This document shows positions 740 through 35,549 of a stretch of 64,000 bases of DNA, one piece after another (position 1 is the first letter of the stretch; every line of letters starts with the position of its first letter). A program made the position numbers and the translations under genes. This DNA is from a bacterium (GTDB taxonomy: Bacteria > Zhuqueibacterota > QNDG01 > JAFGCO01): contig JAFGCO010000006.1 of the NCBI GenBank assembly GCA_016932575.1, positions 1 to 64,000 of the forward strand, read 5' to 3'. A model generated the notes under the pieces. The model did no database searches. It saw only the letters and a program-made list of their open reading frames with translations, and was not told the origin of the DNA.

Positions 740-973
740 GTGTGTGCGGATGATATGAAAGAACAATTCAGTAAAAAGCTTGAAGAAATTCTGCAATCCG
801 CATCAGCGCGTCTTTATCCCGCTGAAATTGGTGAAGCCAAGGTTTGCCTGGACAGCAGGTGCGATAATGGTGACAGTGCGCTGCATGTATTCATTTGGAG
901 TAATGAAACAGAGAAAGCGCTATTTCTTATCGAGAATGGAATCGATGTTAATTTTATGGGACAGGTGAAATGA
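740..973 (+). pseudogene. Truncated ankyrin-repeat protein
   Basis: The 77-codon frame contains one ankyrin-like helix pair (GDSALHVFIW ... ALFLIENGIDVNF), then stops where a second repeat should begin. Starts are GTG 740 or ATG 755; neither has a good ribosome site. The stop overlaps the next start as ATGA (970-973), so the two could be translationally coupled. Ankyrin proteins need several repeats to fold, so this is most likely the remnant of a longer protein, in keeping with the decayed sequence just upstream. A genuine small protein cannot be excluded. Confidence 0.5.
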
Positions 974-2295
974 GACGCATATCTTTGTTAATTATATTCA
1001 TTTTATTCTTTGATATTTTAATTGCCAAAAACCGCTATATGTTTTATCATGATTATTCGACGATGATAAAAAAATCCAACGATTCTATTCAATATATTTA
1101 CAGTGAAAAGAGTTCTAAAGGAGAATTGTCCTTCTTCTTATTTGAATCACAGTCGAATAACAAATGTAGAATTCTGACCCTGGATAATCATCAATCTGAT
1201 TTATTAGAAGAAATTTACTTCCGGAAAAACGGCAATATTCTTGCTATTTTTAATGACAATGAATACGGACAAATACTTGTTATGATAAATAAAGATATTT
1301 CTGTTGAAATAACGGCGCCTGAGCGCGATATCATCAGCGGATTCTCTATTTCTTCAGATGAAGGTTTATCTGTCAATTATCATCGGGAAAGGTCATTTCC
1401 AGATCTTTCTTTTTCACCAAACGGAAATAAAATCATTTTTTGTCAGGATGATTCTGTTACAATTGAGGATCCGGTTTCCGGCGAATACAGAAGAAATCTG
1501 GTTATCAGACAGCTTGATTTCGGAGAAATAACAATTAAAACAGTTTTTACAGATACTCTGCAACTTAGTTATTTAATGGTTGACAGGGATATACATAGAT
1601 TTATATTAACCTGGAGCAGTTCAAAAGAGAACCAGTTTTATTTAACTGATTTTATACAAGGGCAATTAATAAATACTTTCCGGAATTTATGGAAATTTGA
1701 CATTAAGAATGCCTCCCTGGATTTGGTAAGTTCGTTTGTTGAAGAAGTGTATTGTGTTTCGAGAGATGATATGCGGATTTTATTTGTCAATAATGATGAA
1801 ACATGTTGTAGTGGTATAAATTATACGAACAACCAATTATTTGAATATCATCTTACTGATCATAGTCTGGATACATTATTTTGTGAGTATTCTGAATTTT
1901 CAAATGAAAATTGTCCTTCGGAGCATAGACCAATTTCATCGATGTATTCTCCAGGCAATGATAAAATAGTGTTTGATATCGAAACGCTTATTATATCAAA
2001 TGCTTTAAATTGTGAAATGGAAAAAATTGACAAAGCAAAGGAATTCGGATATTTCAAATCGTACGATATCGTTATCTACGATCGATTTACCCGGAATGTG
2101 AAAAAATACAATAATGCAAGATATAAACAGTGGTTTGACGATAATCATCTGATTATCAGCCCATTAACAGTAAAATGGGATTCCCTGAAAAGAGAATGGG
2201 TAAATGACTTTTCGAATAACCTTATACTGAATATTAATACAATGAATACAAAAATATTGAAATACGATATACATACAATATTTTCAGCTTTTTAA
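970..2295 (+). CDS. Exported protein with propeller-like PD40 segments
   Basis: 441 residues. Residues 1-19 form a signal peptide (MRRISLLIIFILFFDILIA). Two segments resemble the PD40/TolB propeller strand: LSFSPNGNKIIF near 146-157 and SMYSPGNDKIVFDI near 320-335. They suggest a beta-propeller in the periplasm or on the surface. There is no catalytic motif. The start is set by the ATGA overlap with the preceding ankyrin fragment and an AGGTGA ribosome site. The gene is AT-rich and sits next to decayed sequence, so it may be part of an accessory patch. Function not recognised. Confidence 0.75.
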   Translation: MRRISLLIIFILFFDILIAKNRYMFYHDYSTMIKKSNDSIQYIYSEKSSKGELSFFLFESQSNNKCRILTLDNHQSDLLEEIYFRKNGNILAIFNDNEYGQILVMINKDISVEITAPERDIISGFSISSDEGLSVNYHRERSFPDLSFSPNGNKIIFCQDDSVTIEDPVSGEYRRNLVIRQLDFGEITIKTVFTDTLQLSYLMVDRDIHRFILTWSSSKENQFYLTDFIQGQLINTFRNLWKFDIKNASLDLVSSFVEEVYCVSRDDMRILFVNNDETCCSGINYTNNQLFEYHLTDHSLDTLFCEYSEFSNENCPSEHRPISSMYSPGNDKIVFDIETLIISNALNCEMEKIDKAKEFGYFKSYDIVIYDRFTRNVKKYNNARYKQWFDDNHLIISPLTVKWDSLKREWVNDFSNNLILNINTMNTKILKYDIHTIFSAF

Positions 2296-33912: not shown

Positions 33913-35376
33913 TCATTCACCGATATTTGATCTCCAATGACATAGAGCTTTAAATGCCAGTATATCATTATTAAAATGTAAATGAGATGCAAGCTCTGGT
34001 GGTGTTGTAGCTATATCAGGCGGTTCAAGTGGTACAGGATCTATAAAGTCAATTCCTTTTTCTTTTAGGGCATGGGCCCATTCCATTTTCACCCACTTTG
34101 AATCCTTGGCTGCTCTTGACCAAAACAAATAAAATATATCGCTTTTATCAATTAATTGAAATAATTTGGATTTATATTTATCTCCTGACCGTAAAGCTAT
34201 TATATCCATGAATATTTCTAAATCTGGTATAATTTTCCTCATTCCCGTAAGAATTGAAAATACTTCTTCACGATCCTCACTTGCATATGAAGGAAATACA
34301 GATCGATATCTCATTTCCTTATGACTTAAAGGTTTACTTTCTAAAGATAATTCACCAACATGTATAACAAAATATAGCTTGGAAATCGGTATGCCATTTA
34401 AATAAATACTAATTCGACCTTTATAATTACCAAAGGACATACTCTTTGGAGCTTTCACAATAAACGTTGCATTTCCAATATCTCCGTCCCAAAATATAGC
34501 ATCTTCTGGATCGTCAATAATAAAGGGTGCTAAATCAATTCTAACATTTAATAAAGAACCTTTTACAATGGATACTGGCCCTTTAAAATCAACTTGAATA
34601 GGTTTTTCATTGAAAATTATTTTTGATCGTTTAAGGACTTCGTCCCTCTGTCTTTCTAGGTGTGCAAACAACTCAATTCGAAAAGTTGAACCAGGTTCTA
34701 CGGTAGATAATGATGTTAATGTGAAATGCACTTTGTTGAATTTTTTATGTGGCATTTCTATTTTTTGATTTAAATCAGGCTCTACTATATCAAACACATA
34801 TCTTTTAAGTTTATTTCTAGCACTACGAATAGCCCTATCAAATGCTTCTTCACTAATTTGCATTTCCTTTATAATTTCTTTCGTACTTGCTTCCTGCATT
34901 ATAATTGTCATTATTTTTCGTTCGGTATCATTTAAATATTTAAATGCTGCTTTAATCTTTTCAGTAAGATCTTCAGATTCAGAAAGAGAATCTTGTGAGA
35001 AATTATACACATTCCCTATAAATGGATCTACAGGATCTTGTACAGAGGAATTTTTCCTTCTGGCTTCAGTATTTTCTGGTTTTACTTCTGTTTCCCGACT
35101 CTTTTCAATCACATCAGATATTCTTCGCTTATATAGATTTTCATACGTTTCATCTTCAATGTGCTTTTCCCGGCGCATCTGCCTGATTTTCTGCCTTCTT
35201 CGATCTAGATATTTATAATTTAAAATACTATGAGCCCATTGAATGAACAATCCTTTATATTCCACTTCCAAACATCGAATTGATAAGATAATATATAGAA
35301 TCCATAAAAAAATATTTCCCTCGTTCCCACGGTCTGAGACTGTGTGAAAATGGATAAAACCCCCTCCTCGATCCAA
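33913..35376 (-). CDS. Sigma-70-like / TIR domain protein, 5' end truncated
   Basis: 487 codons; roughly the first 18 come from the repeat element at 35322-35525. Residues about 38-70 (GLFIQWAHSILNYKYLDRRR) resemble sigma-70 region 2. About 140-195 (FKYLNDTERKIMTIIMQEAS ... AIRSARNKLKRYV) resembles region 4, with a helix-turn-helix. About 210-350 is a beta domain starting KVHFTLTSLSTVEPGS. About 358-480 is a TIR domain: VFPSYASEDREEV, MDIIALRSGDKY, YLFWSRAAKDSKWVKMEWAH with the conserved Trp/Glu, and PELASHLHFND. TIR domains of this kind may cleave NAD or signal in defence; the joining to sigma-like segments suggests transcriptional control. The native start is lost; ATG 35178 could give a shorter product. 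Confidence 0.7.
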   Translation of the reverse strand: MDRGGGFIHFHTVSDRGNEGNIFLWILYIILSIRCLEVEYKGLFIQWAHSILNYKYLDRRRQKIRQMRREKHIEDETYENLYKRRISDVIEKSRETEVKPENTEARRKNSSVQDPVDPFIGNVYNFSQDSLSESEDLTEKIKAAFKYLNDTERKIMTIIMQEASTKEIIKEMQISEEAFDRAIRSARNKLKRYVFDIVEPDLNQKIEMPHKKFNKVHFTLTSLSTVEPGSTFRIELFAHLERQRDEVLKRSKIIFNEKPIQVDFKGPVSIVKGSLLNVRIDLAPFIIDDPEDAIFWDGDIGNATFIVKAPKSMSFGNYKGRISIYLNGIPISKLYFVIHVGELSLESKPLSHKEMRYRSVFPSYASEDREEVFSILTGMRKIIPDLEIFMDIIALRSGDKYKSKLFQLIDKSDIFYLFWSRAAKDSKWVKMEWAHALKEKGIDFIDPVPLEPPDIATTPPELASHLHFNNDILAFKALCHWRSNIGE

Positions 35377-35525
35377 AGGAACGGATCGAGGTCCCCCTTA
35401 TCAGGGGGACAAATTTTCTCTTCGATATGAAAAACGGAGAAACAGCGTATTGTAATATTGGAAAAAAACACAGTCAAAACACCCGGGGTTTGGCTATTTT
35501 CACACAAACTCTCTCCGTGGGAACG
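35322..35525. mobile_element. 204-bp MITE-like element with inverted-repeat ends
   Basis: The outer 30 bp form imperfect inverted repeats: CGTTCCCACGG + 9 nt + GTGTGAAAAT (35322-35351) against ATTTTCACAC + 9 nt + CCGTGGGAACG (35496-35525). 21 of 21 outer and inner positions match and about 4 of 9 in the middle. Inside are two perfect stem-loops: CCTCGATCC/GGATCGAGG (35366-35391) and TCCCCC/GGGGGA (35392-35409). It has no coding capacity. It abuts the TIR gene body and supplies its apparent start. The CGTTCCCACG...CGTGGGAACG motif is a widespread bacterial palindrome type. No target duplication was seen. Confidence 0.6.
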
Positions 35526-35531
35526 CATTCA

Positions 35532-35549
35532 ATGACGCTTTCGCGTCAT
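35532..35549. repeat. Short perfect palindrome beside the MITE-like element
   Basis: ATGACGC-TTTC-GCGTCAT, a 7-bp stem with a 4-nt loop, lies 7 bp from the element's outer end and may belong to the same composite repeat. It lies 28 bp past the response-regulator stop and might also serve as its terminator. Confidence 0.5.

Follow-up and report, generated by a model that had tools for sequence, protein, structure and literature searches.

A UPA-like beta-sandwich fixed before a TIR domain in a prokaryotic protein family, with one probably truncated member carrying a sigma-like front

The protein encoded at 33913-35376 of the reverse strand belongs to an uncatalogued prokaryotic family in which a UPA-like beta-sandwich is followed by a TIR domain; this module is the conserved and informative part of the protein, and the family is the lasting result of the analysis. 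The window, that is, the whole stretch of 64,000 nucleotides analysed, comes from contig C35 of a 4.4 Mb draft genome. The open reading frame (ORF) is real, as originally predicted, and is flanked by a response-regulator/kinase pair on one side and cysS on the other; its features are collected in Table 1. The surroundings are AT-rich (GC 0.31-0.33 vs about 0.45), and the ORF itself has a GC of 0.32-0.33 against 0.45 in the long ORFs of the window. Its GC3, about 0.21, falls roughly four standard deviations short of the mean for those ORFs (0.46, sd 0.06), while the three codon positions follow the order GC1>GC2>GC3 seen in coding DNA. From the atypical composition combined with this coding-like pattern, the gene is probably of foreign origin, yet has behaved as a gene. 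A second strongly AT-rich ORF of the window (970-2295, forward strand; 441 aa, GC 0.31, GC3 0.29) is possibly foreign as well, and had no match in a Pfam search at E 0.01.

Table 1. Features of the ORF and its 5' side (window coordinates)
Feature	Coordinates	Strand	Basis or remark
ORF, 487 codons from TTG as listed	33913..35376	-	start not credible
TIR domain, residues 358-480	33937..34305	-	profile and fold match
W428...E432, WxxxE motif with presumed catalytic glutamate	34081..34095	-	alignment
UPA-like beta-sandwich, residues 211-345	34342..34746	-	fold match; W296 and F305 invariant in family
ECF sigma region-4-like helix-turn-helix, residues 126-194	34795..35001	-	profile match
Fragment like ECF sigma regions 2.3-2.4, residues 37-70	35167..35268	-	weak alone, E=0.0018
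Dispersed intergenic repeat, source of the first ~21 codons of the ORF	35310..35549	.	inverted ends 35322-35362 and 35485-35525

Whole-ORF searches of genome, viral and phage collections returned no relatives. A profile of the beta domain plus TIR, run against genomes, identified 71 loci in named genomes, and in 57 of them both domains are covered; the same profile had no match in viral contigs. The family spans about a dozen bacterial phyla (Chloroflexi, Cyanobacteria, Clostridia and other Firmicutes, Proteobacteria, Acidobacteria, Planctomycetes, Bacteroidetes and others) and one archaeon, Methanothrix, and named strains with homologs include Nostoc, Variovorax and Thiolinea. Surveying the phylum to which locus L048 belongs added seven Chloroflexota loci, and when 386 genomes from one Nostoc-containing phylum were surveyed, only the locus already known passed a strict cut-off. 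The module is C-terminal in nearly all members, and the parts in front of it vary widely: CoaE-like, HEAT, CARDB, GAF (a weak match), kinase, leucine-rich repeat (LRR), PKD/carboxypeptidase-regulatory, pentapeptide, SEFIR/TIR (a second TIR) and apparently transmembrane parts were found. The fronts scanned had no Pfam match to ZU5/FIIND. In one Accumulibacter protein (L093:6462-8732), the UPA-like domain and the TIR follow leucine-rich repeats, so that a bacterial protein has the layout of an LRR-TIR receptor.

The original prediction mentioned a middle, beta domain without further identification. The domain is real, and its UPA-like fold had been missed. An AlphaFold2 model built from 44 sequences reached a pLDDT of 90, and the top four structure matches of its beta domain (4d8o, 6m3q, 7crv and 7crw) are all UPA domains. 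The ankyrin-B UPA 4d8o matched with Z 11.9-12.1 and rmsd 2.7-3.0 over 119-120 residues in two models, the second ankyrin-B entry, 6m3q, with Z 11.2, and the NLRP1 UPA with Z 10.3 (7crv) and 9.5 (7crw). The full-length model gives the same UPA matches, with Z of 12.1, 11.4 and 10.5. The best non-UPA Ig-like domains reach Z 9.4 over about 98 residues, compared with about 120 for UPA, so that 7crw alone is tied with them. Across the 44 members scanned, the beta domain is covered by no Pfam or NCBIfam model. The Pfam UPA model (PF17217) matches none of the 44 and, even with the threshold relaxed to E 10, finds nothing at these loci; we therefore call the domain UPA-like and not UPA, a predicted link by fold, with common descent a possibility.

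TIR_2 (PF13676) matches residues 360-456 with E=8e-12 and 46.1 bits (cut-off 28), in agreement with the C-terminal TIR carrying a conserved Trp/Glu that had been predicted. E432 is invariant in 58 sequences and aligns with the glutamate of the SARM1 WVHKE motif. The closest structures to the TIR model are SPARTA TIR-APAZ (Z 14.9), AbTir (13.9) and SARM1 (12.2), with Toll-family TIRs also among them; the entry 9mud is a Cat1 filament. Judged from its sequence, the domain is probably an NAD-cleaving enzyme. A WxxxE glutamate in a TIR does not guarantee an active NADase, and some TIRs work through assembly alone. The closest TIR, 45% identical, is encoded in KSB1 by L013:987-1875 (L086), which overlaps a kinase-like ORF out of frame, has no UPA-like match and looks broken. 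Elsewhere, G000:C59:20000-50000 (L001-L004, L006, L007, L171) holds six TIR_2 matches in about 30 kb, five of them above the curated cut-off, in frames of 270 to 812 codons with unrelated genes in between; the searches run found no UPA-like domain among these.

The front of the protein is related to ECF sigma factors. The ECF sigma model TIGR02937 matches residues 37-193 with E=6e-8 from profile position 45 on, and the whole sigma segment with E=2.4e-8 over profile positions 48-164 of 165; the total of 32-34 bits is under the cut-off of 42.9. Residues 126-203 alone give E=7.8e-6, whereas the region-2 fragment alone reaches only E=0.0018, its best match being a sigma model associated with type III-E CRISPR. 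Scored with an ECF model made for this analysis, the sigma segment reached 18.9 bits and shuffled sequences at most 13.3 (0 of 2000 as high). Profile positions 1-44, which correspond to regions 2.1-2.2, are absent from the ORF, and region 2 is thus incomplete. Among related genomes, the nearest sigma found is a short ECF of G073 with 34% identity over region 4. The nearest ECF sigma, L030:1477-2323, appears split, its N-terminal part seemingly encoded upstream in a different frame that overlaps it. When free-standing ECF sigmas were added to the alignment, they were misplaced onto the beta domain, and this alignment was left out of modelling. The full-length model shows the sigma part at low confidence only, and therefore no fold is claimed for it. 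Overall, the sigma ancestry of region 4 is sound from the profile matches, and a region-2-like stretch is weakly supported. The original prediction had combined a region-2-like stretch and a region-4-like helix-turn-helix with a TIR end in one chain. Both ends are present, the helix-turn-helix is upheld, and the N-terminal half is more than an unrelated helical linker; of the region-2 stretch a fragment stands, with the first ~44 profile positions missing. Its further proposal of a defence regulator is unsupported because region 2 lacks its first part and none of the other family members scanned has a sigma-like front, and a role as transcription regulator is likewise unsupported. The combination of sigma and TIR is real, a single and probably damaged case.

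The damage would lie at the 5' end. Residues 1 to about 21, included in the ORF as originally predicted, come from a dispersed repeat with inverted ends of 41 nt each, of which other genomic copies exist (86% identical over 156 bp on contig C14). The TTG at 35376 was consequently rejected as a start, and the in-frame ATG, GTG and TTG codons of the sigma part downstream of the repeat have no convincing ribosome-binding site. As the gap between the repeat and the upstream gene is only about 50 bp, the missing 5' part does not lie beyond the repeat. The simplest reading is that the 5' end of the ORF was probably lost at the repeat; a relative with an intact sigma front, which would prove the loss, was not found.

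A gene in this condition could be dead, an untranslated pseudogene that the repeat has cut, as the repeat, the missing sigma N-terminus, the lack of a ribosome-binding site and the strongly atypical composition would suggest. We consider this unlikely, since about 450 AT-rich codons are still open with coding-like GC by codon position, and the family-invariant residues are all intact. Another reading, which comes near the original prediction, takes the protein as a working transcription-coupled sensor, whose sigma-derived front would bind a promoter or RNA polymerase and whose TIR would be released or activated when a phage alters transcription. Region 4 exceeds chance, the reading frame is uninterrupted and its GC by codon position (GC1>GC2>GC3) resembles that of coding DNA, the region-2 scrap has its best, weak match in the CRISPR type III-E-associated sigma model, and bacterial TRADD-N conflict proteins with ECF-like HTH fronts have been described (PMC8195603). 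This reading appears improbable, as regions 2.1-2.2 are missing, there is no credible start, and a similar front is seen in none of the other family members. Sigma regions 2.1-2.2 contribute to core binding. Least likely of all is a scaffold made of a non-enzymatic TIR adaptor and a generic Ig-like fold: certain TIRs do act by assembly alone and Ig-like domains of sialidases and complement match the beta domain with Z about 9, but E432 is invariant and the UPA matches rank higher and cover more residues.

The gene neighbourhoods had been suggested earlier as a place to look for defence genes. Few homologs have recognisable conflict genes next to them: five are near another TIR gene and three near one shared gene family. 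No general partner was found among 456 flanking ORFs. A PADLOC search returned weak matches to parts of the protein only. A defence setting is plausible, given the TIR relatives SPARTA, Cat1 and SARM1 and the fact that some homologs are encoded beside other TIR genes.

The explanation that we favour, with moderate confidence, is an undescribed effector family with a variable front, a UPA-like domain and a TIR, of which this copy is probably cut at its 5' end. In animals, UPA sits before a Death or CARD domain and aids its oligomerisation, and the TIR NADases of SPARTA, SARM1 and Cat1 act as assemblies. In NLRP1 and CARD8, UPA oligomerises and promotes CARD filaments, the linker being 9-20 residues long (PMC7794362). 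The linker between the UPA-like domain and the TIR is of similar length, 15-24 residues in all members but one. From these observations we infer that the variable front would act as a sensor or brake; once it is triggered, most likely by a phage or other invader, the UPA-like domains would assemble and so gather the TIR domains, which in this assembled state would cleave NAD+ and thereby stop or kill the cell. Here the front derives from an ECF sigma factor that has kept region 4 and a remnant of region 2, and with the 5' end probably lost where the repeat abuts the gene, this copy may be inactive or without its brake.

Several known systems share parts of this layout. The UPA-CARD of NLRP1/CARD8 and the UPA-Death of ankyrin/PIDD likewise place the beta-sandwich immediately ahead of the signalling domain at the C-terminus, with a short linker (9-20 residues in NLRP1/CARD8) and a variable part in front. 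The family differs in that TIR replaces CARD or Death, and in that the likeness is by fold alone, with no sequence match to Pfam UPA and, in the fronts scanned, none to ZU5/FIIND. SPARTA TIR-APAZ, Cat1, AbTir and SARM1 share the TIR fold and the WxxxE glutamate; in contrast, the TIR here is joined to a UPA-like domain and, across the family, to many fronts, and no Argonaute, CARF or SAM part was seen in the chain. ECF sigma factors described in a review carry an additional C-terminal part after region 4 but, unlike this ORF, do not lack regions 2.1-2.2, and that review mentions no TIR-bearing ECF. The TRADD-N conflict proteins (Kaur et al. 2021, PMC8195603) also have variable N-terminal domains, which can be TIR or ECF-like HTH, whereas here the middle is UPA-like and a constant TIR forms the C-terminal part.

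Bacterial origins of ZU5 are mentioned in the literature, and no description of a prokaryotic UPA domain was found in the literature searched. Bacterial counterparts exist for the TIR, caspase and Death-like domains that serve animal immunity. We tentatively raise the possibility that the UPA-TIR effectors share ancestry with the animal UPA-CARD and UPA-Death proteins, which would point to a prokaryotic origin of the inflammasome UPA adaptor. If so, TIR would be an alternative output of UPA, coupled to fronts as different as LRRs, kinases and, in a single case, a sigma factor. A UPA-like domain fixed before a TIR NADase would extend the list of animal immune adaptors with a bacterial counterpart, and the two domains together would give a simple, testable oligomerisation switch.
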